64,000 nt of DNA from a virus, in IMG/VR virus record IMGVR_UViG_3300025070_000019, positions 1-64,000 of that record; one strand, written 5' to 3'. The position numbers and the translations under genes were made by a program. This document shows, piece by piece, positions 3,789 to 50,754 of the stretch. Under the pieces are notes generated by a model. The model did not search any database, had not been told where the DNA came from, and saw only the letters and a list, made by a program, of their open reading frames with translations. Positions within the stretch are counted from its first letter, which is position 1. Each line of letters opens with the position of its first letter.

Positions 3789-4856
3789 ATGTATATTAAC
3801 AATAATGTAGATGCTGTAATTGGTTTACAGTATGGTGATGAAGGTAAAGGTAAAATAACAGCTGGTGTTCTTAGTCAAGTAAATTATGATATAACAGCGC
3901 GATTTAATGGTGGACCAAATGCTGGTCATTCTATACATAAAGAGAATGGCGCACATTATGCATTACATCAATTACCATCCTCTGTCGTCTACGGACAAAG
4001 AGGACTTATTGGTCCAGGTTCTGCTGTTGACTTTCACAAACTAAATAAAGAAATTAAAGAAGTAAATGCTATAGAAGATTTAAATGTTAAAAATCTTTTG
4101 CATGTTGCTAGAAACATTTGCCCTATAAAAAATAGACATATTGAGGTTGACAGAAACTTTCATGCAGGAATGCAAGGCAGCACTTCATCTGGTATTGCTC
4201 CTGCTTATAGTGATTTTTACAACAGAACTAATGAAAGCAATAATCAGCAATACTTACCACCTCCATTAACAGTTGACAACATGTTACTTGAAGGTGCACA
4301 AGGTTTTTACCTTGATATTTATCATGGACAATACCCTTATGTAACAAGTAGTCACATATCTCCTGCATTTGCAGCAGCTAGTTTTGGATTTTCACCTAAG
4401 AAAATCCGCAACATTATTGGTGTTGCAAAATGCTATGAAACCAGATCAGGTAAAGATCCTTATTTTGATTACTTAATGGATGATATGGGGGTATTGAAAA
4501 AGCAAAAAGGTTTTAATTTTTCATTTGAAGACATTTATGAAGACATACAAAAAACAGGTCATGAATTTGGTGTAACTACAGGAAGAAAACGTCAGATACG
4601 TTTTCTTGATGTAAGTCGTTTGATTCACAGTATTAATGCTACTGGCACTACTCATGTAGTAATTAACAAATGGGACATTTTAGAAAAACTAGATGCTTGT
4701 TGTTACTTTTATAATACTAATTTATTTGTATGTGATAAAGAATCAATGTTTCCTGAAGTGGAAGCATTGATTTATGCTTATTGTAAAGATGTAAAAAAGG
4801 TATTTTATAGTGCATCTAAAACTAATGATATTGATTGGAAGTGGTTAAATGATTGA
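3789..4856 (+). CDS. purA: Adenylosuccinate synthetase (PurA)
   Basis: GTP-dependent joining of IMP and aspartate to give adenylosuccinate. The 355-residue protein is shorter than the usual ~430 residues of bacterial PurA and resembles the compact archaeal type. Visible motifs in order are YGDEGKGK (P-loop-like, with the catalytic Asp), GGPNAGH, GPGSAVD, the GSTSSGIAPAY loop, LLEGAQG with LDIYHGQYPYVTSS, YETRSG, TTGRKRQIR and NKWD (guanine recognition). PurZ enzymes that make 2-aminoadenine precursors are reported to replace the GDEGKGK Asp with Ser. Here the Asp is kept, so an ordinary IMP substrate is more likely. It overlaps purB by 8 bases. Confidence 0.93.
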   Translation: MYINNNVDAVIGLQYGDEGKGKITAGVLSQVNYDITARFNGGPNAGHSIHKENGAHYALHQLPSSVVYGQRGLIGPGSAVDFHKLNKEIKEVNAIEDLNVKNLLHVARNICPIKNRHIEVDRNFHAGMQGSTSSGIAPAYSDFYNRTNESNNQQYLPPPLTVDNMLLEGAQGFYLDIYHGQYPYVTSSHISPAFAAASFGFSPKKIRNIIGVAKCYETRSGKDPYFDYLMDDMGVLKKQKGFNFSFEDIYEDIQKTGHEFGVTTGRKRQIRFLDVSRLIHSINATGTTHVVINKWDILEKLDACCYFYNTNLFVCDKESMFPEVEALIYAYCKDVKKVFYSASKTNDIDWKWLND

Positions 4857-5949
4857 AAGATATTCTGATCCTCTAGTAAAGTGCTTATGGGGAGATAAAA
4901 TTAGATATAGTCTTTATATAAGTTACAGCTTGAGATATTTAGAATATTTTCTAGGAAAGCCTGTTGAAGTTGATATAGAAGCTTCAGTAAGTGAAATAAA
5001 ACAAATTGAAAAAGAAACTAAACACGAATTAGTTGCTGTACTCAAATATATTGATTTACATTTAGAAGATAATTATGAACTAGCAAAATATTTACATTAT
5101 GGATTAACATCTAGCGATGTATTAGATACTATTTCTAGTTATCAAATTAAATCGTGTTTAGATTGGGTCATTAAATTAATAGATAAAATACTTAATGAAA
5201 ATTATAAATGGCCTGGTCAAATTGCTGGTAGAACTCATGGTCAATATGCAGAGATAGTTCATCTACACAATAGATTGCTTTTATTTTTAAATGAACTAAA
5301 GACATGTAAGAAAGAATTAAAAAGAGCTGCCGACAGTTTACAAGGCAAAGCACATGGACCTACAGGTCAATATAAGTGGCCTGGTCAAACTAGATTTATA
5401 CAATCTTGGGATCTTAAAATCCCTAAGATTGTAACTCAAGTTATACCTCGTCATGAATATATAGACTTTATGGTTGCATTAACTAAAACTGCTTCAATTA
5501 TAGAAAGATTTGCTACACAAATTAGATTATCTGCTTTATCTGGTATTGATGAAATCTCAGAAATAAAAAGTCAATATCAATGCGGTTCATCTGCTATGCC
5601 TCACAAAAACAATCCTATATTAAGTGAAAATTTATGCGGACTAGCAAGATTAGTAAGAAGCAATCTTGCTGTATCTTTTGAAAATGTATCTTTATGGCAT
5701 GAAAGAGATATGAGTCATTCCTCTACAGAAAGAGTCATTTGGGAAGACTCTTTTCATTTGGTTTCTTTCATGTTGCAAAGAGTTAAAGTTATATTAGATA
5801 ATTTAAGTATAAATCATAAAAAGAATAATGAAGTAATTAATGAGAATTTAGATAAATTACAAAGTCATGAAAATATGTTAAAAAAGATAATAAATGGGCA
5901 AAGCACAAGAATGGAAATTTATACTAATGAGTTAAGTAAGTTTAGATAA
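4849..5949 (+). CDS. purB: Adenylosuccinate lyase (PurB)
   Basis: Cleaves adenylosuccinate to AMP and fumarate (and in cellular purine synthesis also SAICAR). The protein belongs to the fumarase/aspartase superfamily: LHYGLTSSDVLDT near residue 83, RTHGQ in the middle, and the signature SSAMPHKNNPI (about residues 245-255) with the mobile catalytic Ser loop. At 366 residues it is shorter than most cellular PurB proteins, mainly at the C-terminus. Its start overlaps the end of purA, so the two steps are translationally coupled. The 3' end overlaps a leftward gene. Confidence 0.92.
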   Translation: MIERYSDPLVKCLWGDKIRYSLYISYSLRYLEYFLGKPVEVDIEASVSEIKQIEKETKHELVAVLKYIDLHLEDNYELAKYLHYGLTSSDVLDTISSYQIKSCLDWVIKLIDKILNENYKWPGQIAGRTHGQYAEIVHLHNRLLLFLNELKTCKKELKRAADSLQGKAHGPTGQYKWPGQTRFIQSWDLKIPKIVTQVIPRHEYIDFMVALTKTASIIERFATQIRLSALSGIDEISEIKSQYQCGSSAMPHKNNPILSENLCGLARLVRSNLAVSFENVSLWHERDMSHSSTERVIWEDSFHLVSFMLQRVKVILDNLSINHKKNNEVINENLDKLQSHENMLKKIINGQSTRMEIYTNELSKFR

Positions 5950-8626: not shown

Positions 8627-9466
8627 ATGTCTACTGTAGCTCAAATGACTATGCGAGAAAAACATCTTGCTATAGTTTTATTAGACTTGATAGGCAGTAC
8701 TGCTTTTGTTCAAAAAGTAGGTGCATTAAAAGCAGCTCAATGGTTACAATATCATGATAGATTAACTCGCAATCTTATTTACAGATTTAACGGTCGTGAA
8801 ATAGATCGTTCAGATGGTTTTATGCTTTCGTTTGATTCCGTAATAGATGCTGTTAATTTTGGACTTCATTATCAATCTCAAATACCTGCTAAAATTAAAC
8901 TTAATACTAGAATAGGTATACATTGGGGTAAAATTATTGAAGTACAACAAGATGATATATTTATTGATGCTGGTGCCAAACGAGTAGAACTCGAAGGTAT
9001 AGCTAAAAATATAGCTGCTAGAACAATGTCTTTATGTCAAGCAGGACAAGTCTTGCTTACGAAGGAAGCAATTAGTATAGTACGCAGAAGAACTAATATG
9101 TTTACACCTAAAGGAACGAGATATGCTTGTTTGGGTCTTTACAAGTTTAAAGGAGTAAAAGAGCCACAAGAAATATATGGAGTGGCAGTAGATATAAATT
9201 ATCTACAACCACCTCCTGGTTCCGAAAAGGTCAAACGTATTGGTGGTGCAAAAAAAATAAAAAGTAGAGCTAGAGATAGAAAACTTAAAGAATGGTTATC
9301 TTGGTTATACTATCGATTATTCTTAATATCTTTTGTATATATGAGTTATTGGTTTTTACCTTTTATTTTTAGTCCAACTGGTAGACAAATGTTTAATAAA
9401 CATTTGTTTATTATTTATTTTATTTACGATTTAATTAAAGGAGCATTTAAACATGTGTTTTTATGA
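8627..9466 (+). CDS. Class III nucleotide cyclase with C-terminal membrane region
   Basis: The N-terminal 180 residues form a class III adenylate/guanylate cyclase homology domain. Metal-binding Asp20 is in LLDLIGST, and the second metal Asp63 is in GREIDRSDGF. A GIHWG strand follows, and transition-state residues Asn128 and Arg132 lie in KNIAART. The usual substrate-specifying Lys of adenylate cyclases is not obvious before Asp63, so ATP, GTP or a pyrimidine nucleotide are all possible. Residues about 223-280 contain two hydrophobic segments. Class III enzymes work as dimers with the active site at the interface. A cyclase is rare in phages. Pycsar PycC cyclases share this fold, but no effector gene lies beside it. 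Confidence 0.85.
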   Translation: MSTVAQMTMREKHLAIVLLDLIGSTAFVQKVGALKAAQWLQYHDRLTRNLIYRFNGREIDRSDGFMLSFDSVIDAVNFGLHYQSQIPAKIKLNTRIGIHWGKIIEVQQDDIFIDAGAKRVELEGIAKNIAARTMSLCQAGQVLLTKEAISIVRRRTNMFTPKGTRYACLGLYKFKGVKEPQEIYGVAVDINYLQPPPGSEKVKRIGGAKKIKSRARDRKLKEWLSWLYYRLFLISFVYMSYWFLPFIFSPTGRQMFNKHLFIIYFIYDLIKGAFKHVFL

Positions 9467-14890: not shown

Positions 14891-15757
14891 ATGATAAAAA
14901 GTTACAATTTAGAAACTTCTGAATTGTCATTTCATAAAAAAATATATTCAAATTATCTTAAAATCTTAAATTCTATACACCCAGAATTAAAAGAATATAA
15001 ACCTATTCTTAGTGGTAGTGCAGCAGTAAAATTAGTTATTCACCCTAATGCTGATTTTAATGATTTGGATTTTTATTTCAATTCAGAAGAACATTACAAT
15101 AACACAAAAGAGTTTCTTTTAAAAAACTCTTTTGCATTCAAAACAGAAACAAAAAATTGTATTGTTTTCTCAAATAAAAAAGAAGAAAAAGATATACAAT
15201 TAATTAAAACATTTTATGGAGGTTACAAAAATGTAATTACTTATCACGATTTTCTAAACTGTTCTGTTGCTATTGAAGCCAATATGCTTTATTTAAATTT
15301 AAATGCTTTGAAAGCATGGAAAAATAAAGAACTTGTTTTGCAAAACATACAATGCAATCCTAGTTGTTACCTTAATAGCAAATATAATGATTTAGAAATT
15401 AGCAGTATTTTATCTTACATTGCTAATCTTATGTATCGTATACAAAAATATGAAGATAGGTATGGTCTTAAGTTTAATAATAAATCTATTGAGAGACTAG
15501 CACCATTTAAAACTTATTTAAGGTATTTATCTACAATGCAAACTTTTGATAAAAAAGATTTGCTTTTTTGTAAAGTGGTATATTATGGATCAGCTACTAA
15601 AGATATAGCTTATCAAAAATATATAAATGACTTTATAAAATTATTAAAACTCCCTATAAAATTACGTGTTACATCTGTAAGTGATAATAAACTAACTTAT
15701 AGATGCGAAATAAAAGAACACGATTGGGGTTTTACAAATGAAAATTTATTGTTTTAA
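14891..15757 (+). CDS. Nucleotidyltransferase-fold protein
   Basis: The segment LSGSAAVKLVIHPNADFNDLDFYF (residues about 41-64) matches the pol-beta-type nucleotidyltransferase core: G-S, a helix, then DLD with the two metal Asps. Later strands around ECNM and NCSVAIEANMLYLN could supply the third acid. The remaining 200 residues are helical and unrecognised. Such proteins can transfer NMP to proteins, RNA or sugars. It overlaps the downstream zinc-ribbon gene, which overlaps the E2-like gene, so it may be a component of that system. Confidence 0.6.
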   Translation: MIKSYNLETSELSFHKKIYSNYLKILNSIHPELKEYKPILSGSAAVKLVIHPNADFNDLDFYFNSEEHYNNTKEFLLKNSFAFKTETKNCIVFSNKKEEKDIQLIKTFYGGYKNVITYHDFLNCSVAIEANMLYLNLNALKAWKNKELVLQNIQCNPSCYLNSKYNDLEISSILSYIANLMYRIQKYEDRYGLKFNNKSIERLAPFKTYLRYLSTMQTFDKKDLLFCKVVYYGSATKDIAYQKYINDFIKLLKLPIKLRVTSVSDNKLTYRCEIKEHDWGFTNENLLF

Positions 15758-15959
15758 CAGAGATTCTTGTGCTCATACTAAATATTTACCTTTAGAAGAA
15801 TTGCAAGATTATAATCTCGAAGAACCATTCATTGCATGTCCTGAATGCAATGAATTAGCTGCAATTGTAAGTAATGACTTTATATTAGATGATTCAACTG
15901 AACAGTTATTCATTGCTTATTTAAAGCTATTACAAAAGGAAAAAGAAAAAAATGTTTAA
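15738..15959 (+). CDS. Small zinc-ribbon-like protein, 73 aa
   Basis: Cys pairs lie at CFNRDSC (residues 5-11) and CPEC (about 35-38), so a zinc ribbon or treble clef is likely. An acidic C-terminus with a helix follows. It overlaps the upstream gene by 20 bases and the E2-like gene by 8 bases, so it is translated with the Ubl machinery. It might be an adaptor or E3-like partner, but that is only context. Confidence 0.6.
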   Translation: MKIYCFNRDSCAHTKYLPLEELQDYNLEEPFIACPECNELAAIVSNDFILDDSTEQLFIAYLKLLQKEKEKNV

Positions 15960-18900
15960 ATTTATCCCTGAAGAATTTTTAAAAGATGATTATAGTGAGA
16001 ATATATCTCATTATAATTTTTACAATTTACTTAATAATTATGAAACGATACTAGATACCAATAACTTTAATTTAAAACATACCTGGTCAAAAGAAATATT
16101 AATTTCTTTAACATCAGGATTGAAAACAAGATTAAAAAATCTTAATGAGATTTTTAATAAAGAAAATAATACTTTAGAAAAAGATTTTCTTGGAAAGGAA
16201 ACAGATCTTCAAAGTTCAATTGAAGATTTCAAAGATTTCAATGAAGATAATTCTTTTTTTGAAACTCATTTCAACGATCTATTTTCTTATTTTACAGATG
16301 TTGAAAATAGAAATAATTTACTTTTACATTGTAAACCAGAAGATAAAGACACTCCCTTCTTAGCAAGAAGTAATGTCTCTATTGACGATGATTATTATGT
16401 TAATCTAAATACTGCAGCTAGAAAATCTTGCAGATACTCTCGTTTTTTTAATTTTAAATCAATTCTTAATTCTACAAAAAACTATAAACCTAAGAAGTTA
16501 TATGAAAAAGAACTTAAAAATTACATATTTCAACAATACATAAATAAAACTTTATTTTCAGTTTATGAAGATTCTCAGACAATTTTTAAAAGTTCACTAT
16601 TAGAAAATATAGCAAGAAGTCATTTAGTTGATGAAGAAACATTTGCTCAAAAATTAGATACTGAACATAATTTTTTAAATGCTATGTTTTTGAATTGGTT
16701 CAAACAAAGAGTTGTTAATACAGAATATGGTTATTTTGATTCACTTCAAGAGTATTTTGACTTCTTAGATAGTGATACTAATTGCAAAATATTTAATTAT
16801 GAAAAAAATGATCTCACTCTTACAGTGTACGCTTATCATGGAAAGCAAGAACGTATAAACAAACTTGCAAACTTATTTTCTAGATATGTTCGATTAGAGC
16901 AATATTTAATTTTGTCAAATTTATTAAGTTTTATTAGTTATTCTCAACTTACAACTTCGACTAATAAAACAGTACATTTAAATATGTATAATGAAAACTT
17001 AATTTTTTGTAAAAAAGAACATGATTGTTTAAGAAACAATCAATTGTTTTTCTCTAACTTTCATTCTAGTACTTCTTTTTCATTAAATCCAAATGCTGAT
17101 AGTCCAACTTTTCATTTTCTTCATGAAGATGAAAAGTTTAAAAGAATGAAAAAAACTAATCATTTAAATTCAGATTCTACATACAATAACTACTTAGTTG
17201 TTAAATTTAATTATCATCATATTGAAAATGATCAACATATTTACTCTAGATTTGATAAAAGTTTTTTAGATTTATTTGGCAACAAAATTATTAAAATAGA
17301 TGATGATGTTTTTTGTAATATGTCTTCTAAAGAATATTCATTTAAATTGCCAATTGATAACGATAAAGGAGGAGAAAATAAAGAATTTTTTTTAAATTCT
17401 AACACTTCTCATGTTGTAACGTCTGATACATTTAGCAATGAGCAAAAAACTTATCTTTTTAATTATTTAAAAGAAAACAGTAAAAAGAGAATAAAGGTTA
17501 TTTATTACCCTGGTTTAGATAATAAAAGTAAAAAGAAATATCCAGTCATACAAGGCACTACACTTAAAACTCTATTAACTAAAAAAGGTTTTCTTGTACC
17601 TGTTATGTTACCATTTGTTCATTTAAATGGTAACAATGAAGAACAAAAATCTTGGAATATTTGTTTATTAAACTTTAATGAAAATTCAACTTCTGGTAAA
17701 AACTTTTACAATTTTGCCTATCATATGAATTCTGATTATTTTAGATTAACTTCAAAAGATAGTGTTATCTTTATTATGAGTTTGTTTAAAAAACTTTTTA
17801 GTTATAACAATTTAATTCTCACTGACCCTAAAGAATATGAAAGATTAAAATATTCTAAATTTAATTCTATTTCACAATACAATCAAAATAATGCTGTTTT
17901 ATTTTACGATGCTTTTAAAAAAACATCTATAAGTAATCAAGATAAATTTTTGAAAGCATTTAATGATGCTAAAGGGTTGATAAATCCTACTTCTAAAAAG
18001 GGTGTTTTAGATATTTTCGCTAAAGTTAAATTAGATGAATCTATTAAAATAAATTATGATAAGGTTAAAAAAAGATACGACAAAATAAATTCAAAACTCA
18101 AAGACTTAAAAAAGAGAAAACTAAACTATAAAGAACACGTTGTTGCTTTAGAACATGATGTTGAAAGATATTTAAATGTTATAGAAGAAAAGAAACAGAA
18201 ACTTTTAAATACACAACAATCTTTAGAACAACAAGAACAAGAAATAGAAACTTTTCAAATTCAATATAATTCTATTTCTGAGTTAATGAATCAAAAATCA
18301 CAAGAATATAAAAAAAACTATGAATTAAACTTTAACAAAAAGAATTACGAACTTAATGCTTTCTTAAAAAACATTTCTAAAAACAACATTAATTTATCTT
18401 ACATTTTGTTTTCTATGAAAAATGAACCTAGGAGTTTATTCTTATATTATTCTCACCCTGATTATTTACAAGTCAAGAACTTCAATCTTGAGAGAGATTA
18501 TTATAGTTATTATGATAGTGAATATAATCATAATTATGATGACTTAATTACTGAAATGGATGTAGATAAACAATATAAGTTTGAAGGTGATAACATTTAT
18601 ATTTTGCAATCTTTATTACAAAATAATGATTATTCTATTAAAAAAGTTTGTTTTACTACTATAAAACCTTCTTTAATTAAAATTGATAATAAAGAAAAAT
18701 ATGTAGTTGGTGGTCCATACAGAATCACTGTGAGTACAGCTAAAGTACGTATTGGTCTTTTAAACTTTTCATCTGTTATGGGAGTTGATAATATTGATAC
18801 TCCTAAGAATATCAAAGCTCATCCTCATTCTAATAGTTATGGTTTACATGACATACTTTCTAGAGATGAAGCAACATTGTTAAAACCAACTAACGGTTGT

Positions 18901-19299
18901 TTAGGCGAAGCTAGTACAATGATATATCATGCTTTTAATCAAAATGATTTATCTAGAATTCTATTATCAACTATGATTTGGGTTAAATCTGCTAACTCAG
19001 CAGATGTTTGGGGTAAAACTTACAAATGGTTTCCAGAACCAAATGATGTTGATTTTGAGTTCGATGCTTTAGGTCAATTACCAACGAGTTCTGAAATCAA
19101 TTCTTTTATTGATTCAGAACTAAAAGAAATAGAAGTATCTGAAAATGAAGAACCTTCAGAAGAAGATATTTTTAGAATGGAAACTCAAGAATTAGAACAA
19201 CAAGAACAGGAGCAAATCCAAGAAACACAAAATAACAATCAACAAGATATTGAAACTTTCAATACTGATGACACTTATGTTCGTTATAGAAGAACGTAA
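15952..19299 (+). CDS. Large protein with C-terminal E2-like (ubiquitin-conjugating) domain
   Basis: 1115 residues. Residues 1-700 are Asn/Phe/Tyr-rich and unrecognised. Residues about 700-800 form a long coiled coil. Residues about 880-1060 look like a prokaryotic E2 fold: strands with GGPYRITV, then AHPHS (His957, Pro958, His959) as the E2 HPN-type motif, then the likely catalytic Cys983 in NGCLGEA. A helix and ILLSTMIWVKSANSAD resemble the closing helices after the E2 cysteine. The last 55 residues are acidic and Gln-rich. An E2 takes the Ubl from E1 as a thioester and passes it to a target. JAMM and E1 genes follow directly (12 bases, then overlap). Confidence 0.7.
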   Translation: MFKFIPEEFLKDDYSENISHYNFYNLLNNYETILDTNNFNLKHTWSKEILISLTSGLKTRLKNLNEIFNKENNTLEKDFLGKETDLQSSIEDFKDFNEDNSFFETHFNDLFSYFTDVENRNNLLLHCKPEDKDTPFLARSNVSIDDDYYVNLNTAARKSCRYSRFFNFKSILNSTKNYKPKKLYEKELKNYIFQQYINKTLFSVYEDSQTIFKSSLLENIARSHLVDEETFAQKLDTEHNFLNAMFLNWFKQRVVNTEYGYFDSLQEYFDFLDSDTNCKIFNYEKNDLTLTVYAYHGKQERINKLANLFSRYVRLEQYLILSNLLSFISYSQLTTSTNKTVHLNMYNENLIFCKKEHDCLRNNQLFFSNFHSSTSFSLNPNADSPTFHFLHEDEKFKRMKKTNHLNSDSTYNNYLVVKFNYHHIENDQHIYSRFDKSFLDLFGNKIIKIDDDVFCNMSSKEYSFKLPIDNDKGGENKEFFLNSNTSHVVTSDTFSNEQKTYLFNYLKENSKKRIKVIYYPGLDNKSKKKYPVIQGTTLKTLLTKKGFLVPVMLPFVHLNGNNEEQKSWNICLLNFNENSTSGKNFYNFAYHMNSDYFRLTSKDSVIFIMSLFKKLFSYNNLILTDPKEYERLKYSKFNSISQYNQNNAVLFYDAFKKTSISNQDKFLKAFNDAKGLINPTSKKGVLDIFAKVKLDESIKINYDKVKKRYDKINSKLKDLKKRKLNYKEHVVALEHDVERYLNVIEEKKQKLLNTQQSLEQQEQEIETFQIQYNSISELMNQKSQEYKKNYELNFNKKNYELNAFLKNISKNNINLSYILFSMKNEPRSLFLYYSHPDYLQVKNFNLERDYYSYYDSEYNHNYDDLITEMDVDKQYKFEGDNIYILQSLLQNNDYSIKKVCFTTIKPSLIKIDNKEKYVVGGPYRITVSTAKVRIGLLNFSSVMGVDNIDTPKNIKAHPHSNSYGLHDILSRDEATLLKPTNGCLGEASTMIYHAFNQNDLSRILLSTMIWVKSANSADVWGKTYKWFPEPNDVDFEFDALGQLPTSSEINSFIDSELKEIEVSENEEPSEEDIFRMETQELEQQEQEQIQETQNNNQQDIETFNTDDTYVRYRRT

Positions 19300-19311
19300 A
19301 AAAAGGAAAAA

Positions 19312-20403
19312 ATGCAATCTATTACAGAATTAAATATTTTAAACAAAAAACCTACCCTTTATATTTCATATGAAGGGTTAGAAGCAATTAAACACATTGT
19401 CTCTATTGCGCCACAAGAAGCACAATGGTTTCATACTATTGAAGTTGAAAACGAAAACACTTTAGTTTTATCAGATCGTATTTACATACCAGAACAAAAT
19501 ACATCTGCTGCTCAAGTTGATTCTACATCTGAAATGTTAATAAATTTTTATAAAGAATTATCTAAAGAATTTAAAACGGAAGAAGTAAATCACATATTAC
19601 AAAATATGGGATGTTGGTGTCATTCACATCATAACATGGGTGTAAGTCCATCAGGACAAGACGTAAAACAATTCACTGAATTTGTTAAAAGTTCTATTGA
19701 ACAAAATCAAAACACTTGGCAAATCATGTTGATCTTTAATAAAAAAGATCAATTTTATTGTCGAGCATATGATCCTAAAACAGGAATTATTTACGAAGGT
19801 TTAGATTTAGAAATTTATCATACTTATGATTTCGATTATATTGACAAAGCAGCTAAAACTAAATTTAAGAAACCTAAACCTAAATTTAATAGCTATGGAT
19901 TTAAATCTAAAAAGAATCAAACTAAAACTACTTACACTAGCCCTAATTGGTTATATCAATCTTCACAAGAATCATTGTTTCCAGCTACTGTTGATAGCAA
20001 TGGTTATGTGTATCCTTCGAAGATCAATGATTATGCAAATGAAGGTTATTATGATGAGTTAGCAGAACATATTTTAAGTGGGTTTAATCAAAAAACTATT
20101 AAGTTTAATCAAAACAATTTAGATGAATTAGTTTTTCAAATGCAAAATCATTTAGATGATAGAGAATTTTGTTTATTTAGCTATATGTTAGCTAATAATA
20201 AAAAAAGTCTAATTAGATCTTGGTCTTTAAATGAAGGTGATTTCAATATTTTACTTTTACAAGATGCTGAAGATAAATTAAGAACTTTTATGAAAAGCAA
20301 AACCAGAAGTAAAAGATCTCTTATCAGTAAAATGTCTACATTTTTAGACATTTTAGATTTAAAAAATGATGAAGCAATTAAAATAATAAAGGAGTTAAAT
20401 TAA
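19312..20403 (+). CDS. JAMM/MPN+ metallopeptidase (deubiquitinase-like)
   Basis: Residues about 15-150 form a JAB/MPN domain with an intact zinc motif: His104-Ser-His106, then Ser114 and Asp117 in exactly the HxH-x7-S-x2-D spacing. Glu36 in PQEAQWFH is the likely general base. This motif cleaves ubiquitin-like precursors or isopeptide bonds. Residues about 190-363 are an unrecognised Lys-rich helical extension. The stop overlaps the E1-like start (TAATG). It could process the tandem Ubl at 21732-22238 or remove it from targets. Lambda K-type tail JAMM proteins are the alternative, but those adjoin NlpC domains. Confidence 0.88.
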   Translation: MQSITELNILNKKPTLYISYEGLEAIKHIVSIAPQEAQWFHTIEVENENTLVLSDRIYIPEQNTSAAQVDSTSEMLINFYKELSKEFKTEEVNHILQNMGCWCHSHHNMGVSPSGQDVKQFTEFVKSSIEQNQNTWQIMLIFNKKDQFYCRAYDPKTGIIYEGLDLEIYHTYDFDYIDKAAKTKFKKPKPKFNSYGFKSKKNQTKTTYTSPNWLYQSSQESLFPATVDSNGYVYPSKINDYANEGYYDELAEHILSGFNQKTIKFNQNNLDELVFQMQNHLDDREFCLFSYMLANNKKSLIRSWSLNEGDFNILLLQDAEDKLRTFMKSKTRSKRSLISKMSTFLDILDLKNDEAIKIIKELN

Positions 20404-21092
20404 TGACAGTATCATTTTTACGACATAATTCGTTTTTCGGACCTGAAGATACTGATCAAGCTGTACTTAACATAATTGGTGTTGGTGCAACAGGTTCTTG
20501 GGTTGGTTTATTAGCAGCTAAAATGGGTTGGCACCATTTTAGAGTTTGGGATCTAGACATTGTAGAATCTCATAATTTACCTAATCAGATATATGATTCC
20601 AAACATATAGGAATGAAAAAAGTTGATGCGTTTAAAGAAGTATTATTACGTTTTAATCCTCATTGTATTATTGAAACTAATGATTGTTTTTACACCAGTA
20701 ATACTTTTGCTTCTTCTATGGAAGGTGCAGTTTTTATTGCAGTCGATTCACTCAAAGCAAGAAAAGACATCATGACTGGTTTGAAATCAAATCCTATGGT
20801 GGATTTGATTCTTGAAACTAAAATGGGTTTTACACATGCTGAGATGAATTTTATTGACCCATTAGATGTAAATTTTATTGACAACTACTTATCTATGCTT
20901 AAAAATGATGACGAAGTAGAAGAAAGTGCTTGTAATGCACGTATCATTACTACACTTACTAATATTGTTAGTAGCACACTTGTTCATGAACTTTGTAACT
21001 TCTACAAAAAGTACAATTCAGAAGAAGATACTAAAAAATCTTTTAAAACTATTTTTAACATTGAAAACTGTTTATCAGTTTATCATACATAA
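20403..21092 (+). CDS. E1/ThiF-like Ubl-activating enzyme
   Basis: Rossmann adenylation domain of the ThiF/E1 family, 229 aa. The nucleotide loop is IIGVGATGS (Gly26, Gly28, Gly31). The acidic pair DLD (Asp50, Asp52) is followed by ESHNLPNQ. The usual Arg of the E1 NLxRQ motif is replaced by Asn here. A likely catalytic cysteine is Cys177 in SACNAR, matching the Cys-N-x-R motif of PRTRC-type and other prokaryotic E1 proteins. It would adenylate the Ubl C-terminus and form an E1 thioester. The protein ends after the adenylation fold, as in compact bacterial E1s. Confidence 0.88.
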   Translation: MTVSFLRHNSFFGPEDTDQAVLNIIGVGATGSWVGLLAAKMGWHHFRVWDLDIVESHNLPNQIYDSKHIGMKKVDAFKEVLLRFNPHCIIETNDCFYTSNTFASSMEGAVFIAVDSLKARKDIMTGLKSNPMVDLILETKMGFTHAEMNFIDPLDVNFIDNYLSMLKNDDEVEESACNARIITTLTNIVSSTLVHELCNFYKKYNSEEDTKKSFKTIFNIENCLSVYHT

Positions 21093-21106
21093 ATCTAAGG
21101 ATTATT

Positions 21107-21295
21107 ATGTCAAAAGAAAAATTACAATCTATTATTAATTTACTAACTTCATCTCTAGAAGATGCAACAAAGTTTGATGCAGGAAATGATGCTGCAGGTA
21201 AACGTATTCGTAAGGATTGTCAAGATGCTAAAGCACTTTTACAAGAACTTAGAGTTGAAGTACAAGAAGAAAGAAATAATCGAAAAGCTAAGTAG
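21107..21295 (+). CDS. Small helical protein, 62 aa
   Basis: Charged helical protein with Lys/Glu-rich heptads and a CQDAK segment. An AAGGATTATT ribosome region precedes the ATG. It is the last gene before the terminator at 21322-21352, so it belongs to the transcription unit of E2-like, JAMM and E1. It is unrecognised; it may be an adaptor or a substrate. Confidence 0.55.
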   Translation: MSKEKLQSIINLLTSSLEDATKFDAGNDAAGKRIRKDCQDAKALLQELRVEVQEERNNRKAK

Positions 21296-21321
21296 ATTAT
21301 TTCTAAACAAAAAACATTTTA

Positions 21322-21352
21322 AAAAGGGAGGCATTTAGCCTCCTTTTTTATT
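21322..21352 (+). terminator. Rho-independent terminator
   Basis: GGGAGGC ATTTA GCCTCC forms a GC-rich stem preceded by an A tract and followed by TTTTTTATTTT. It closes the operon that contains the E2-like, JAMM and E1 genes and separates it from the tandem Ubl gene. Confidence 0.9.
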
Positions 21353-21365
21353 TTAAGGAGACTAA

Positions 21366-21656
21366 ATGTACATTTACCGTTTAATGCAAGGCGATACTAC
21401 TAAAGACGCTTTTTTAAAAATGTTAGCTAAAGAAAAAGAATGGTCAGAATATACTAATGAACCATCTTTATTTATTAAATATAAACGTTATCAAGTTTTA
21501 GATACTAATAAACATTTTGATAAAATGGAGGATGAAAATGTAATTCATAAATATTTAAAAGAAAAAAATTTATCTAAAAACTGCTGTGGAGTATTTGTAC
21601 TACATGGCAACCAATTTCAATTCCTATGTCCTGATGACATTGAATACGAATATTAA
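21366..21656 (+). CDS. Hypothetical protein, 96 aa
   Basis: Soluble protein, aromatic and acidic, with two adjacent Cys in its C-terminal half. An AAGGAG site precedes the ATG. No family is recognised. It lies between the terminator and the tandem Ubl gene. Confidence 0.55.
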   Translation: MYIYRLMQGDTTKDAFLKMLAKEKEWSEYTNEPSLFIKYKRYQVLDTNKHFDKMEDENVIHKYLKEKNLSKNCCGVFVLHGNQFQFLCPDDIEYEY

Positions 21657-21731
21657 CTTCGCTTAATTTTAAGCAAAATTTATTAAATAAACTGTATTTA
21701 CATACAAAAACAAAAAGAAGGAAAAAATCCT

Positions 21732-22238
21732 ATGGATATCACTCTTATCGTAATTCCTGGTCCTGGTGTTCGCACTGTAACTCTTAACGAAAATACAACT
21801 GTAGAGCAACTTGTTACGCAAGAAAATTTACATGGTCGTGACATCATTATTGATGGTGTTGGTGTTTCTCCTGCTAACTATCAAACAACTAACATTACTG
21901 CTAATAGCGAAGTATTTGCTACTGGTAGTGTGAAAGGGAATATGTCTAATTTAACTTTAATCGTAATTCCTGGTCCTGGTGTTCGCACTCTTAGTATCAC
22001 TAATAGTATGACTGTAGAACAACTTATTACGCAAGAAAATTTACATGGTCGTGATATTATTATTGACGGTGTTGGTATCTCACCAACTAATTATCAAACA
22101 ACTACATTAACTAGTGGTAGCGAAGTATTTGCTACTGGTAGTGTAAAAGGGAATGGTGATCGTCCTGCAAACGGTCCATCACAAACAGGTCGTCCTAGTG
22201 GTGGTGGACGCGGTAACAATCCACCTCGTGGAAAGTAA
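21732..22238 (+). CDS. Tandem ubiquitin-like (beta-grasp) protein
   Basis: 168 residues made of two near-identical repeats of about 70 residues with a 71-residue period. Each repeat runs: strand LIVIPGPGVRT, a short hairpin strand, helix TVEQLxTQENL, strand HGRDIIIDGVG, then a final strand ending SEVFATGSVKGN. This order fits the beta-grasp fold of ThiS/MoaD/Prok_Ub proteins, whose C-termini end in GG or (in Prok_Ub) a KG. Both repeats end at the same VKGN. A Gly/Pro/Arg/Asn-rich tail follows (143-168). The gene is outside the main operon but beside it, in the usual ubiquitin-precursor arrangement of head-to-tail units. Confidence 0.8.
   Translation: MDITLIVIPGPGVRTVTLNENTTVEQLVTQENLHGRDIIIDGVGVSPANYQTTNITANSEVFATGSVKGNMSNLTLIVIPGPGVRTLSITNSMTVEQLITQENLHGRDIIIDGVGISPTNYQTTTLTSGSEVFATGSVKGNGDRPANGPSQTGRPSGGGRGNNPPRGK
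21747..21989 (+). repeat. Direct repeat within the tandem Ubl gene
   Basis: A 30-base identical block begins at 21747 and again at 21960, 213 bases (71 codons) apart. Later blocks around 21811 and 22024, and at the repeat ends, are also nearly identical. This shows a recent internal duplication or active concerted change of the two Ubl units. Confidence 0.9.
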
Positions 22239-22395: not shown

Positions 22396-23298
22396 ATGAA
22401 AGATATATTCGAACCAGTAAAACTAACTGTTTCAGATTCATTTATTGATAACTTGTTTATTGAAAAAACAAACGAATTAAAAAGTATACATAAAAAGTTC
22501 CACTATGAAAGTGGGACTTTTTTAGTTTTACAAAGTGAAAAGAAAAAGAACAAGAAAGCATTAGCTTATGTAACTGTAGATGAATTAAAATTAATTGACC
22601 CTAAATTAGCATATGGTTCTATAAGTCCTAAAGACTCTAAACAACTTATGTTTGCCGCTGCTATGCAAGAAATAGATTTTAGTGTAATTGTTTGTTTTGG
22701 TGCTGCTGGAACAGGCAAAACTACATTAGCTATAGCAAAAGCAATACAAGATTATTTTACACATAAAAAGAAAATCTATTTAACAAAACCTACACATATG
22801 GTACAATCACATACGAATCAGGTGTTTGGACCTGTACCTGGCGATGTAGATGAAAAATATACACCATATATAAAGAGTTTTGAAATAGTATTGAAAAAGA
22901 TTTTAGGAAACGAAAGTAAACACTATTTAGATATGATGAAAAAACGAAAAGATCTTGAATTTGTACCTGTTGAATATACAAGAGGATGCACGTATGAAGA
23001 CTGTACTTTTATTATAGATGAAGTACAAAATATGACATGGCACGAATTAAAAACTACTATGAGTAGAATAGGTGAAAATAGTCAATTGTTACTATTAGGT
23101 GATTTAAATCAAATTGACGCAGATTTTGGTTTAAAAGATTCAGGAATATATCAATTAATAACTTCTCAAACTTTTGACGAATCAGATATTACTTCTACTA
23201 TAAAGCTTACTAAGCAATATAGAGGACCTATACCTGATTTAGTCTATCATGTAGATAAAGAACAGAAAGGAACTCATGAATTATCCAACGAGTTTTAA
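22396..23298 (+). CDS. phoH: PhoH-family ATPase
   Basis: P-loop ATPase of the PhoH family. Walker A is FGAAGTGKTT (about residues 100-109), with a following YLTKPTH segment and the PhoH-specific FGPVPGDVDEKYTPY. Walker B is FIIDEVQNM, followed by LLLGDLNQID and a KLTKQYRGP segment. Phage PhoH proteins are common, especially in marine phages; their role is not settled, and RNA or phosphate metabolism have been proposed. The start overlaps no other gene and follows the promoter at 22331-22360. Confidence 0.9.
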   Translation: MKDIFEPVKLTVSDSFIDNLFIEKTNELKSIHKKFHYESGTFLVLQSEKKKNKKALAYVTVDELKLIDPKLAYGSISPKDSKQLMFAAAMQEIDFSVIVCFGAAGTGKTTLAIAKAIQDYFTHKKKIYLTKPTHMVQSHTNQVFGPVPGDVDEKYTPYIKSFEIVLKKILGNESKHYLDMMKKRKDLEFVPVEYTRGCTYEDCTFIIDEVQNMTWHELKTTMSRIGENSQLLLLGDLNQIDADFGLKDSGIYQLITSQTFDESDITSTIKLTKQYRGPIPDLVYHVDKEQKGTHELSNEF

Positions 23299-23701
23299 TG
23301 TTTATAAAAAAACTGCAGCGGCTCAATTCACATTATTGATCCCACGCAGAGATGAAAATGGTCGTATACAAAAGCCAGGTGCCATTCTTTTAGAGATGGC
23401 ACCTTCTAAAGGTGACAAAGCATATGATTGGAATTCTAAAATTTATTTTGCGTTTGGTTTAAATGACTTAACGCAATTTTTTGACGACCCATACTCTGAT
23501 AAATGGGGTAGCTTTTTTCACAAAAATGGTGACACTAATAAAAAATTACAAATTAGTCATGGTGAAGGTCGTTATGAAGGAACATATACAATGAATCTTT
23601 ATTCTGGAGATCAACGTATTATGATTTCTTTAACAGGTGGTGAGTTTACTGTCTTAAGTAAATTATTTGCTAGTGCATTACCTAAGTTAATAGGTTGGTA
23701 A
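23276..23701 (+). CDS. Hypothetical protein, 141 aa (beta-rich, possibly ssDNA-binding)
   Basis: Strand-rich protein opening with SFNVYKKTAAAQFTLLIPRR and ending in two hydrophobic helices (LSKLFASALPKLIGW). It overlaps phoH by 23 bases. The pattern of beta strands plus C-terminal helix loosely recalls small ssDNA- or RNA-binding phage proteins, but no signature proves it. Confidence 0.55.
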   Translation: MNYPTSFNVYKKTAAAQFTLLIPRRDENGRIQKPGAILLEMAPSKGDKAYDWNSKIYFAFGLNDLTQFFDDPYSDKWGSFFHKNGDTNKKLQISHGEGRYEGTYTMNLYSGDQRIMISLTGGEFTVLSKLFASALPKLIGW

Positions 23702-33143: not shown

Positions 33144-33410
33144 ATGAAAGCTTTAATAGTTGATACACCATATACAGAATCATTTAAAGGCAAATTCGAT
33201 AAAATACAAGATAAAGTTTATGATATTTTGCATTTGCTACCATATAATCAAGATGATGTAGAATTTTTATCTTATTTGGCTGATAACTTCTTAGAAGGTT
33301 TAGAAGATTATTATAAAGAGAATGTTTTTAAGTGTAAATGTTGTGAAAGGTTAGCTGTTAAAGGTAACATATGTTCTGACAACTATGAAAAGGATTGTAA
33401 AAGACAATGA
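33144..33410 (+). CDS. Small Cys-rich protein, 88 aa
   Basis: The C-terminal half carries KCKCCERL and two further Cys, so a zinc site is likely. No family is recognised. The stop overlaps the DnaE N-terminal gene start by 4 bases. Confidence 0.5.
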   Translation: MKALIVDTPYTESFKGKFDKIQDKVYDILHLLPYNQDDVEFLSYLADNFLEGLEDYYKENVFKCKCCERLAVKGNICSDNYEKDCKRQ

Positions 33411-34675
33411 GTGGAGAGTATGTACACTTACATGTACATACCGAGTATAGTTTATTAGATGGTATAAATAAGGTTAATAGATTACCACATATTATAAAAG
33501 AGATGAATCAACCTGCATTAGCTATGACAGATCATGGCAATGTATCTGGTTCATTTAAGTTTTATAAAGAGTGTAATAAAGCAGGCGTTAAACCTATTAT
33601 AGGTATGGAAGCTTATTATACTGTAAATGATAGAACTGCTAGAGAAAAAGATGAATTAGAAAAATCCTATTATCATCTTATTTTGCTGGCTCAAAATAAT
33701 ATTGGTCTAAAAAATCTTATAAAACTATCTTCTTACGCTTATACAGAAGGTATGTACAGGAAACCACGTATTGATGATGCATTAATTGCTCAATACTCTG
33801 ATGGTATAATTGCAACGACTACTTGTTTAGGTGGTCGTGCATCTCAATTAATTATTAATGGCCGAGAAAAAGAAGCTGAAAATTTAATACATCATCATAA
33901 AGCAATGTTTAAAAATAGATTTTTAGTTGAATTACAATTACATAAAGACAAAGATCAACAACTAGTTAATAATGTATTACAAAGAATTGCATTAGATAAT
34001 GACTTACCTATGGTTCTTACAAATGACTGCCACTACACGCATGAGCATGATAAGTGTCATCATGAGGCAGCTTTATGTTTGCAAACAAAAACAACTCTTA
34101 GTAATGAGAAACGTTTTACTTTTGGTGAAATAGATGTACATGTAGCACATCATGACTGGATGTGGAAACATGCAGAAGCTCAAGGAATGCCTTATGATGT
34201 TATTAGTAATAGTGTTGCTGTTGCTGATTTAATTGATAGCGATTCATATTTTATGGATAGAATGAATCGTTATCCTAAGTATCAAGAGCTACCTGAAGAT
34301 ATGACTTCTATTGATTATCTGAATGTAGAAGCTCAACATGGATTGTATAGGAGGTTTAAAGAGTTGCCTCCAGAAGATTATAGAAAACGTTTAGCCTATG
34401 AGCTGAAAGTAATTAAAAGAATGGGTTTTGCTGATTATCTTTTGATTGTTGCACAATTTATGAATGGCGCAAAAGAAAGAGGTGTTTTGCATGGCCCCGG
34501 TCGTGGCTCTGCTGCAGGTTCTCTTATTGCTTGGGCACTTGGTATTACTGAAGTGGATCCAATTAAATATGGATTAGTTTTCGAACGTTTTTTAAATGAA
34601 GGTCGTGGTGCTACACCACTTATATTCAATAAACAAATGGCTTTAATAGCTGATCAAAATGGTTTACCATTTTAA
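33407..34675 (+). CDS. dnaE: DNA polymerase III alpha, fragment A (PHP and N-part of palm)
   Basis: First of three genes that together make a DnaE replicase. It opens with a PHP domain (HLHVHTEYS, MTDHGNVSG, residues about 6-45), runs through the N-part of the palm (HGPGRGSAAGSLIAWALGITEVDPIKYGLVFERFLNEGRG, to residue 401) and then stops. In ordinary DnaE the catalytic PDFDVDF follows at once. Here ATP (402-404) is followed by an unrelated 18-residue tail and a stop. The catalytic Asp pair lies in fragment B (35499-37091). Confidence 0.92.
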   Translation: MSGEYVHLHVHTEYSLLDGINKVNRLPHIIKEMNQPALAMTDHGNVSGSFKFYKECNKAGVKPIIGMEAYYTVNDRTAREKDELEKSYYHLILLAQNNIGLKNLIKLSSYAYTEGMYRKPRIDDALIAQYSDGIIATTTCLGGRASQLIINGREKEAENLIHHHKAMFKNRFLVELQLHKDKDQQLVNNVLQRIALDNDLPMVLTNDCHYTHEHDKCHHEAALCLQTKTTLSNEKRFTFGEIDVHVAHHDWMWKHAEAQGMPYDVISNSVAVADLIDSDSYFMDRMNRYPKYQELPEDMTSIDYLNVEAQHGLYRRFKELPPEDYRKRLAYELKVIKRMGFADYLLIVAQFMNGAKERGVLHGPGRGSAAGSLIAWALGITEVDPIKYGLVFERFLNEGRGATPLIFNKQMALIADQNGLPF

Positions 34676-35422: not shown

Positions 35423-35506
35423 ATGCAAAAAATTTGTATTGAACTTTTTTTAATTCCAGCAATAATTGCTTTTTTTAAAAAAATGAAAAAGAAAAAAAAT
35501 GTATGA
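35423..35506 (+). CDS. Possible 27-aa peptide
   Basis: Short frame overlapping the start of DnaE fragment B by 8 bases, with one hydrophobic run and a Lys-rich end. It may couple translation of the fragment B gene. The preceding 35360-35422 holds a patch with repeated ACATCCA and no gene. Confidence 0.35.
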   Translation: MQKICIELFLIPAIIAFFKKMKKKKNV

Positions 35507-37091
35507 CAGTAGAAAAAATAATTTAAAACTCTTAGATGAGAATATAATAGATGAAAGATACGATCAAGTCGATCCCGATTATTTAGCTTTTGAAGTTAAA
35601 ATGGTATCAGATGAAGATTTAGAAAGAATTTTCTGGTTGTTAACTGAAAAAGTTAAATTTGAATCGAATCCATACAATTCTATCTTGCTTTATATTACAG
35701 GGATTACAGATGACTTTAATTTTGATAAAGCTAGATCTGAAATGGTTGGTGGTGCTCCACCTGACATTGACATTGACCATGATGCTTTAGACAGAGAAGA
35801 AGCGATTCAATGGTGTGTTGATTACTGGGGTAGAGAAAATGTAGCTAATATTATTACTCATGGTACTTTTAAACCTAAAAGTTTAGCGCGGTCTTTTTAT
35901 CGTATTACTGAAGGCAATAATGAAGACCTTAACGAGTTACTTAAAAAGATACCTATGCCTGTATATGGTAAAGAAGCTACATTAGATGAAATACTTGAAG
36001 TTGCACCTGAAATAAAAGAAGAAATACGATATGCAAACTTTTTGGAGTTTGCAGATCGTATTGAAGGTATGGTTTCTACATTTGGTATTCATGCTGCTGG
36101 TATTATTATATCTGACACTGAAGTTAATGATACTGTTCCTGTATGGAAAAATAGCAAGGCAGATCGTATTACTCAATATGATAAAGATGAATGTGAAGAA
36201 CTTGGTTTGATTAAGTTTGACTTCTTAGGTATAGACACATTGTCTATTATTAAAGAATGCCGTCATTTAATTAAACATCATACTTTATTAGATATAGAAC
36301 CATATGCAATTGAAGATGGAGATGAAAGAACTTATCAGACACTTTGTAGTGGCTTGCTTACTGGCGTCTTTCAAATGGAAACATCTGGTACTGCTAAAAA
36401 ACTAATACTTAGTATTCGTCCTAAATCAATAGAAGATTTATCTGCTATATCAGCTTTGAATCGTCCAGGTCCGTTACAAGCAGGACTAGATAAACAATAT
36501 ATAGAGAACAAATATAAGGGCTCTCCTCCAAAAGATTTACCTAGTAATGTTGCTGAAGTATTACAAGCTAGTTACTGGACTTTAGTTTATCAAGAACAAG
36601 TAATGGATATATGTTCTAAAATTGCAGGATTCACTCCTAAACAAGCTGATGATATTCGTCGTGCTATGGGTAAAAAGAAACATGAAGTATTAGAAAAATA
36701 TAAAGAACAATTCATTGAAGGTTGTCAATCAATTGGTGGTCTTGCCAAAGATTATTCAAGTAATCTTTGGGATGATCTTGTCGGTTTTGCAGACTATTGT
36801 TTATTAGGTAATACTAAGATTCAAACTGTAGATGGTACTTTCACAATAAAAGACATAGTTGATAACTTTATTTCAGCAGAAGTATTTAGTTATAGTTTTA
36901 AAGATAAAAATTTTATTAAACAAAAAGTATCTCAATGGTATAATCGTGGTGTCAAGCCAGTATATCGTTACACGTTAGAAGATGGTACTTATGTCGATTG
37001 TACAGAAGATCATAAGTTTTTAACAATAAATGATGATATGCTTGAAATTGATGCTATATTTGATAAAAATATAAAATTAAAGACTAAATAA
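35499..37091 (+). CDS. dnaE: DNA polymerase III alpha, fragment B (catalytic palm, fingers) plus N-half of a split intein
   Basis: The first 83 residues are an extension not found in ordinary DnaE. From GGAPPDIDID (84-93) the sequence is DnaE, with catalytic-type Asp89 and Asp91, and later KFDFLGID carrying the third acid and LNRPGPLQAGL, VYQEQVMDI, RRAMGKKK and DDLVGFADY of the fingers. At Cys434 the sequence becomes an intein N-half (CLLGNTKIQTVDG; the TEDH motif in TYVDCTEDHKFLT) of 97 residues and stops. The C-half is at 50641-50754. The insertion point (after FADY) is the same as in the cyanobacterial DnaE split intein. Confidence 0.92.
   Translation: MYDSRKNNLKLLDENIIDERYDQVDPDYLAFEVKMVSDEDLERIFWLLTEKVKFESNPYNSILLYITGITDDFNFDKARSEMVGGAPPDIDIDHDALDREEAIQWCVDYWGRENVANIITHGTFKPKSLARSFYRITEGNNEDLNELLKKIPMPVYGKEATLDEILEVAPEIKEEIRYANFLEFADRIEGMVSTFGIHAAGIIISDTEVNDTVPVWKNSKADRITQYDKDECEELGLIKFDFLGIDTLSIIKECRHLIKHHTLLDIEPYAIEDGDERTYQTLCSGLLTGVFQMETSGTAKKLILSIRPKSIEDLSAISALNRPGPLQAGLDKQYIENKYKGSPPKDLPSNVAEVLQASYWTLVYQEQVMDICSKIAGFTPKQADDIRRAMGKKKHEVLEKYKEQFIEGCQSIGGLAKDYSSNLWDDLVGFADYCLLGNTKIQTVDGTFTIKDIVDNFISAEVFSYSFKDKNFIKQKVSQWYNRGVKPVYRYTLEDGTYVDCTEDHKFLTINDDMLEIDAIFDKNIKLKTK
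36798..37088 (+). other. Split intein N-half in DnaE
   Basis: Residues 434-530 of the fragment B protein. Cys1, block A (CLLGNTKIQT), and block B with Thr and His (TEDHKFLT) are present. Length 97 residues compares with about 102-123 in cyanobacterial DnaE N-inteins. No endonuclease domain. It should ligate its extein to the C-extein at 50755 by protein trans-splicing. Confidence 0.9.
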
Positions 37092-50597: not shown

Positions 50598-50627
50598 AAA
50601 GCGTCTTAATTGACGCTTTTGTTTTTT
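50598..50627 (+). terminator. Rho-independent terminator
   Basis: AAAGCGTC TTAATT GACGCTTTT then GTTTTTT. It closes the tail block and isolates the third DnaE gene from it. Confidence 0.85.
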
Positions 50628-50640
50628 GAGGTATGTAAAA

Positions 50641-50754
50641 ATGAAAATTGTAAAAAAAGAATTTCTTGGTAACCAAGAAGTTTACGATATCGGTGTGTCT
50701 TCTAACGAAGATGCACATAACTTTTTGCTAGATAATAACTTGATAGCAAGTAAT
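50641..50754 (+). other. Split intein C-half in DnaE
   Basis: 38 residues, compared with about 35 in cyanobacterial DnaE C-inteins. Block F is VYDIGVSSNEDAHNFLLDN, containing a four-residue insertion relative to the DRDHNF type; block G is LIASN with +1 Cys (Cys39). The partner N-half is at 36798-37088, 13.5 kb upstream on the same strand. Confidence 0.9.

Follow-up and report, generated by a model that had tools for sequence, protein, structure and literature searches.

A predicted ubiquitin-like conjugation cassette of four separate genes in a phage genome

To our knowledge, the conjugation of ubiquitin-like proteins (Ubls) in bacteria has been described chiefly from the defenses of hosts against phages (Bil, and Cap2 of the cyclic-oligonucleotide-based anti-phage signaling system, CBASS) or from the PRTRC cassettes of plasmids. 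Could a phage own such a system itself? The question is raised by one block of genes in the virus record IMGVR_UViG_3300025070_000019, of which bases 1 to 64,000 out of 96,641 were analyzed (the window, to which coordinates refer unless a contig is named). An earlier note on this DNA had read the block as a complete conjugation system, and its four open reading frames (ORFs), the last with two Ubl units, lie where it had placed them:

15952 to 19299, plus strand: E2-like protein of 1,115 amino acids, with a variable N-terminal part, a coiled coil at about residues 700 to 808, and an E2-like domain near the C terminus
18475 to 19143, plus strand: the E2-like domain, with HPH at 18820 to 18828 and the codon of the predicted catalytic Cys983 at 18898 to 18900
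19312 to 20403, plus strand: JAMM metallopeptidase of 363 amino acids, with E36, H104, H106, S114, and D117, and the motif at 19621 to 19662
20403 to 21092, plus strand: minimal ThiF/E1 enzyme of 229 amino acids, with the nucleotide-binding loop at 20472 to 20498 and the Cys177 codon at 20931 to 20933
21732 to 22238, plus strand: tandem Ubl of 168 amino acids, with unit 1 at 21732 to 21941, unit 2 at 21942 to 22154, and a Gly/Arg-rich tail at 22155 to 22235

The 12-base gap and the 1-base overlap of TAATG type described earlier follow from these ORF coordinates, and the HPH motif with Cys983, the JAMM motif, the GxGxxG loop, and Cys177 are all present and invariant in relatives. Because annotation scans of the record found amidase, UvsX, thymidylate synthase, ribonucleotide reductase, DNA polymerase, and primase genes, together with a baseplate wedge gene outside the window, the record is, by its gene content, a phage, probably one with a contractile tail. 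Taking all the evidence below together, we judge it highly likely that this phage encodes a self-contained and reversible Ubl-conjugation cascade.

What is the modifier? The AlphaFold model of a single Ubl unit, built with 28 aligned units, reached a predicted local distance difference test (pLDDT) score of 91.6, and Foldseek placed it nearest to MoaD (7.5e-4, TM score 0.84), followed by SAMP1, ThiS, NEDD8, and ubiquitin, which confirms the beta-grasp Ubl fold. VKGN is invariant in 28 of 28 aligned units; those of the close group all end FATG[SA]VKGN, with the variant FAVTSVKGN in contig L060. Ubl genes are single, dimeric, or trimeric, and in one case tetrameric, and each contig has one to five units, often in tandem. 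Many of these genes stop right at the Asn, and others add one to three residues or the conserved Gly/Arg-rich tail TGRPSGGGRGNN, which in the window follows the last Ubl unit; several relatives carry it on one of their Ubl genes. In divergent relatives the ends read SKGN-A, VVKG-ALHYCTKF, IRG-A, VRGG-IR, and SGG, and the Gly of [VIS][KR]G is kept in all relatives read, including the distant ones. The Gly of KG is thus the constant feature, with the Asn standing in the place of Gly76 of ubiquitin, and because the tails differ after KG, trimming by the JAMM peptidase to a Gly end is favored. The Asn, however, never varies in the close group, so the modifier may instead end in Asn. The nearest precedent for a GN end is MccB, an E1-like enzyme acting on a C-terminal Asn, and we know of no E1 chemistry on such a residue outside the peptide pathway of MccB. 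Another contig (L027, 10532 to 10738) has, flanked by two normal Ubl genes, a Ubl-like paralogue of 68 amino acids that matches the Ubl profile at E 4.5e-4 and lacks any KGN tail, possibly a non-conjugatable copy.

The JAMM motif, HSHHNMGVSPSGQD, lies at residue 104. The JAMM protein alone stayed under the Pfam cut-off (0.015), and the profile of 14 relatives matched archaeal JAMM1 (1.5e-7), RPN11, and BRCC36 among solved structures; H104, H106, S114, and D117 are invariant in these relatives and E36 is nearly so. The profile thus confirms the superfamily assignment, with deubiquitinases as the nearest solved relatives, and a domain scan found no NlpC/P60 domain in the protein. For the 229-residue E1, the Pfam scan gave ThiF (PF00899) at 3.3e-19, and its profile matched 9egb (2.4e-12), UBA5 (4e-9), MoeB, and also Cap2 in the PDB. 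The enzyme has the loop IIGVGATGS and Cys177, the latter invariant in 18 of 18 compared E1s, crAss-like, Flavobacterium, Xanthomonas, and PRTRC enzymes included, and the E1, with its adenylation fold and catalytic Cys, is confirmed by profiles and residues. In PADLOC it matched only generic E1-E2 models, and direct scans with Pfam, PHROG, PADLOC, and NCBIfam gave nothing for the E2-like protein and otherwise only generic ThiF/JAB matches.

Does this set of proteins tag other proteins at all? The Ubl might instead be a carrier like ThiS, CysO, or QbsE, activated by the E1 and trimmed by the JAMM peptidase for cofactor or peptide synthesis. Its nearest folds are indeed MoaD and ThiS, the E1 matches ThiF/MoeB family models, though far below their cut-offs, and trios of ThiF, JAMM, and Ubl without an E2 serve sulfur transfer (PMC1779556). 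However, an E2-like protein accompanies the genes in nearly all relatives (none was recognized in L025), and tandem polyproteins in multiple copies are unusual for carriers. Sulfur carriers such as ThiS, MoaD, and CysO have a C-terminal Gly-Gly and a sulfur-transfer partner, whereas the units here end in VKGN with no terminal GG, and the annotated neighborhood genes include no rhodanese, for which no dedicated search was made. We hold a carrier role to be very unlikely.

Is the cassette a constant possession of related phages? IMG/VR searches by JAMM, E1, Ubl, and E2 converge on the same contigs, which share the order E2-JAMM-E1-(Hc1)-Ubl-PhoH-Whirly, and because E2-JAMM-E1-Ubl recurs in every untruncated related contig examined, this order is not due to chance. 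As a blind test, the neighboring Whirly gene was used as the query and returned 20 contigs. In one of them (L094) the sequence stops some 1 kb upstream of Whirly, too early for the cassette to be seen. All 19 others carry E1 and Ubl, and two new and most divergent contigs (39% and 32% Whirly identity) have the E2-like protein, JAMM, E1, and a diverged Ubl with the order kept. Therefore, the cassette is core to this phage clade, and the neighborhood conservation on which the earlier note had staked its reading is borne out. The gene distances of JAMM and E1 also correlate (Spearman 0.63, 0 of 2,000 permutations). Viral scans that used E1 or E2 as a single sequence found no relatives, which appeared once alignments were used; the GenBank phage search with JAMM and megablast of the cassette block gave no match. 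Among contigs of metagenome-assembled genomes, L060 carries a close relative of the cassette, while E2-like and E1 genes are present in L061, L062, and L063, the first two of which also have JAMM, and the E2 motif of these three is more canonical.

The fourth part, the E2, is the weakest link of the four assignments. HPH occupies residues 957 to 959 of the large protein, and the pattern HPH...CxG...N..D is invariant in relatives, with N..D.WG lying past the helices. The AlphaFold model of the domain (18 sequences; pLDDT 81, predicted template modeling score 0.78) shows the element order alpha1-beta-meander (beta4)-HPH-Cys-alpha-alpha. When relatives from L061 to L063, L023, L024, and L026 (HPHV-x5-CxG) were added to make an intermediate profile, its ten best matches in the PDB, the only ones below E 0.1, were all E2 enzymes, UBE2L3/UBE2N (E 0.021 to 0.085), and the alignment runs across the domain with HPH over HPN and Cys983 over the catalytic Cys of UbcH7. 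The assignment is thus supported by the motif, the order of secondary structure, the genes around it, and a profile match across the PDB that is marginal.

Several results weigh against this assignment or against the cascade as a whole. Foldseek of the E2-like model against the PDB returned no E2, despite the good model confidence; the widest E2 profile lost the signal and had no PDB match; and comparison with Prok-E2_A, _B, and _D was not significant by hhalign or by hidden Markov models with decoys, the decoys ranking above. Besides, the Ubl ends in GN, not GG, the distance correlation of JAMM and E1 is also expected under plain vertical descent, and conjugation is so far a prediction. Foldseek against BFVD found one unnamed phage homologue only. 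It could be argued from the Foldseek result, and from an E2 similarity that is marginal and alignment-dependent, that the Cys domain is some other thiol enzyme and that the E1 conjugates directly to targets or that no conjugation takes place. We find this highly improbable, because the intermediate relatives bear HPHV-x5-CxG and YxxGxFxIEI and can be aligned with UbcH7 over the full length, and the domain stays together with E1 and JAMM. The domain is probably a very divergent, though unproven, E2 of an unclassified E2-like family. In the four-part reading proposed earlier, the Ubl (model and Foldseek), the JAMM peptidase, and the E1 (profiles) consequently hold, while the E2 is probable, with motif and intermediate profile for it and Foldseek and the widest profile not.

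How far do such cassettes reach? By tblastn, the E1 reaches 81 GenBank phages, namely, crAss-like phages (Steigviridae), Flavobacterium psychrophilum phages, and Xanthomonas/Erwinia jumbo phages, where it is labeled "thiamine biosynthesis protein" or hypothetical; five of the 81 regions were read. FpV4 and three of the crAss-like genomes have a JAMM-motif protein immediately 5' of the E1, and 5' of this pair lie a protein with MHSH...CxG and a protein with a beta-grasp-like N terminus. The crAss-like E2-like protein occurs in 45 records. PDB profiles of the crAss E2-like and Ubl-like proteins gave nothing convincing, and the E2 and Ubl of crAss-like phages and FpV4 are candidates by motif and position only. 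Xanthomonas phage PhiXhv-15 has an E2-like protein and an E1 between DNA ligase and topoisomerase and a Ubl-like protein ending in GG, with no recognizable JAMM in the six ORFs read around the E1. The E2-like protein of a Xanthomonas jumbo phage (L055, 3259 to 5937) is rich in Cys at either end, and these stretches may bind zinc or be E3-like.

What would the system act on? The cassette in the window lies beside DNA polymerase, recombinase, PhoH, and ribonucleotide reductase genes, and its crAss-like counterparts beside primase, uracil-DNA glycosylase, and resolvase. Because of this repeated placement in replication and repair blocks, we infer that the system acts in the DNA metabolism of the phage or in takeover, a role that the gene context favors over the marking of virion proteins. 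In the cascade we propose, the JAMM peptidase would first cut the Ubl precursors, with their tandem units and C-terminal tails, at the VKG/N boundary. The minimal E1 would then adenylate the Ubl C terminus and receive the Ubl on Cys177, after which Cys983 of the E2-like protein would take it over; the large N-terminal region of this protein, perhaps with the co-encoded zinc ribbon, may choose the targets. Finally, lysines of phage or host proteins, probably of the replication or takeover program, would receive the Ubl, which the JAMM peptidase would be able to remove. The VKG remnant that had been predicted on lysines needs correction for a trypsin digest: Lys precedes the Gly, so Gly (+57.021) or Gly-Asn (+171.064) would be left.

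The same cascade might also serve to disarm the Ubl-based defenses of the host (Bil, CBASS Cap2/Cap3), by way of host enzymes or by stripping tags. Bil hosts tag phage proteins, according to Hor et al. 2024 as cited in PMC13373217, and a JAMM peptidase could strip such tags, as suggested for Borgs (PMC12660748). But a phage would not need its own E1, E2, and Ubl for this purpose, and in the phages studied the module belongs to the core and is inherited together with replication genes, while counter-defense genes tend to be patchy; we therefore think this role decidedly unlikely. A bolder version, that several large tailed phage lineages, crAss-like ones included, run a Ubl code of their own that marks the host chromosome or the machinery of replication, and that the modifier of this clade is activated and attached through its C-terminal Asn (VKGN), appears doubtful to us.

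The cassette is flanked and interleaved by further features:

14891 to 15757, plus strand: nucleotidyltransferase-like protein (G[SG]..., D-x-D[LI]YF), usually immediately 5' of the cassette; phrog_4400 at 2.4e-10 (function unknown)
15738 to 15959, plus strand: small zinc-ribbon-like protein overlapping the start of the E2-like gene; CxxxxxC...CxxC pairs, weak Pfam match to Zn_ribbon_8 (0.018)
21107 to 21295, plus strand: Hc1-like protein of 62 amino acids, 3' of the E1 (PF07432, 8.4e-15), at the equivalent place in 9 relatives
21327 to 21349, plus strand: intrinsic-terminator-like hairpin GGAGGC-ATTTA-GCCTCC-TTTTTT, read directly in the sequence
21366 to 21656, plus strand: protein of 96 amino acids, interleaved with the Ubl genes; its homologues adjoin Ubl genes in L002, L003, L006, L014, L015, and L027

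The GS/GG and DxD-YF pattern of the first protein is kept in 10 relatives, with a Q and a D further along, and we read the motif as that of a nucleotidyltransferase fold. The Cys pairs of the zinc-ribbon-like ORF are conserved in 8 relatives at the equivalent position. The terminator scan listed the hairpin on the minus strand only, but on the plus strand, too, a T6 run comes after this palindrome. The terminator described as closing a three-gene unit therefore exists, but the Hc1-like ORF precedes it, and the unit is longer than three genes. A fusion of the domain of the 96-residue protein to a tetra-Ubl in L036 was a weak hhalign hint, and we do not claim it.

Other genes in the window deserve a record. 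The Whirly-fold protein (23276 to 23701, PF08536 3.4e-12) adjoins PhoH throughout the clade. At 3789 to 5949, a PurZ-like adenylosuccinate synthetase (phrog_1211, PF00709 2.3e-66) is followed by an adenylosuccinate-lyase-like protein (PF00206 2.4e-22), a possible pair for 2-aminoadenine (Z-genome) synthesis. A class III adenylate/guanylate cyclase domain match, rare for a phage, lies at 8627 to 9466 (PF00211 3.4e-5, over the Pfam cut-off). DNA polymerase III alpha is split over ORFs: the N-terminal piece is a third ORF (33407 to 34675) with no clear intein, the piece at 35499 to 37091 ends with an N-intein (ADY-CLLGNTKIQTVDG..., PF14890 5.8e-7, below cut-off), and the piece at 50626 to 51894, 13.5 kb off, begins with a C-intein (...VYDIGVSSNEDAHNFLLDNNLIASN-CFNKAHS). 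The arrangement resembles the split intein of cyanobacterial DnaE, whose site it shares.

Iyer et al. 2006 (PMC1779556) described bacterial cassettes and, for phages, only the Ubl-JAB pair of lambda/T1 tails; Iyer et al. 2021 (PMC7824862), in their overview of jumbo phages, do not mention JAB, E1-like, E2-like, or Ubl proteins; and searches limited to open-access PMC returned no paper on a complete phage E1-E2-JAMM-Ubl cassette. What is new here is a predicted Ubl-conjugation system owned by a phage, with separate genes, tandem VKGN modifiers, and an unclassified E2-like family. The crAss-like candidate relatives include cultured members such as DAC15, so a laboratory test can be made now. If our reading is true, reversible tagging and processing of the polyubiquitin kind could be studied in a simple viral model, and many phage "thiamine biosynthesis proteins" would need re-annotation.

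How does the cassette compare with known systems? PRTRC cassettes are plasmid-borne, whereas the cassette here is on phages and has tandem Ubls. Both share one gene order, with E2-like, JAB, and ThiF as separate genes (L064 to L066; type 6d of Iyer et al. 2006, with Prok-E2_D, JAB, ThiF, and a small Ubl), and the PRTRC Ubl is likewise small with a conserved Gly near its C terminus (PMC1779556). However, the E2-like protein is not matched by PF14460 (Prok-E2_D/PRTRC_B), the conserved His lies upstream of the Cys (HPH) here and downstream of it in PRTRC, and the ThiF reached 17.4 bits against a PRTRC_ThiF (TIGR03736) cut-off of 144.75. The Ubls of Bil are tandem. Bil (BilA Ubl, BilB E2, BilC JAB, and BilD E1) is, by description, alike in its four separate parts and reversible conjugation, but Bil genes are bacterial and act against phages, while those here are phage-encoded. 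CBASS Cap2/Cap3 and Bub use the same E1, E2, and JAB chemistry, and a nucleotidyltransferase-like gene lies upstream here; in those systems E1-E2 or E1-JAB are fused, whereas the E1 and E2-like domain here are on separate ORFs, the nucleotidyltransferase-like protein matched no CD-NTase model in PADLOC or Pfam, and the E1 had generic E1-E2 matches only. BubCD is fused (458 amino acids in the PDB), and the E1 here resembles its E1 part at 1e-4 only. The lambda/T1 TAPI/TAPK pair is phage-borne too (PMC1779556), but it is a tail module without E1 or E2, its JAB fused to NlpC/P60, in contrast to the replication and nucleotide neighbors here. Finally, eukaryotic polyubiquitin and ubiquitin-tail fusions share with this cassette tandem units and C-terminal extensions that need a peptidase, a likeness for which we count both the Ubl copy variation, from single to tetrameric tandem, and the conserved tail, with an LRGG end in ubiquitin and a VKGN end here.

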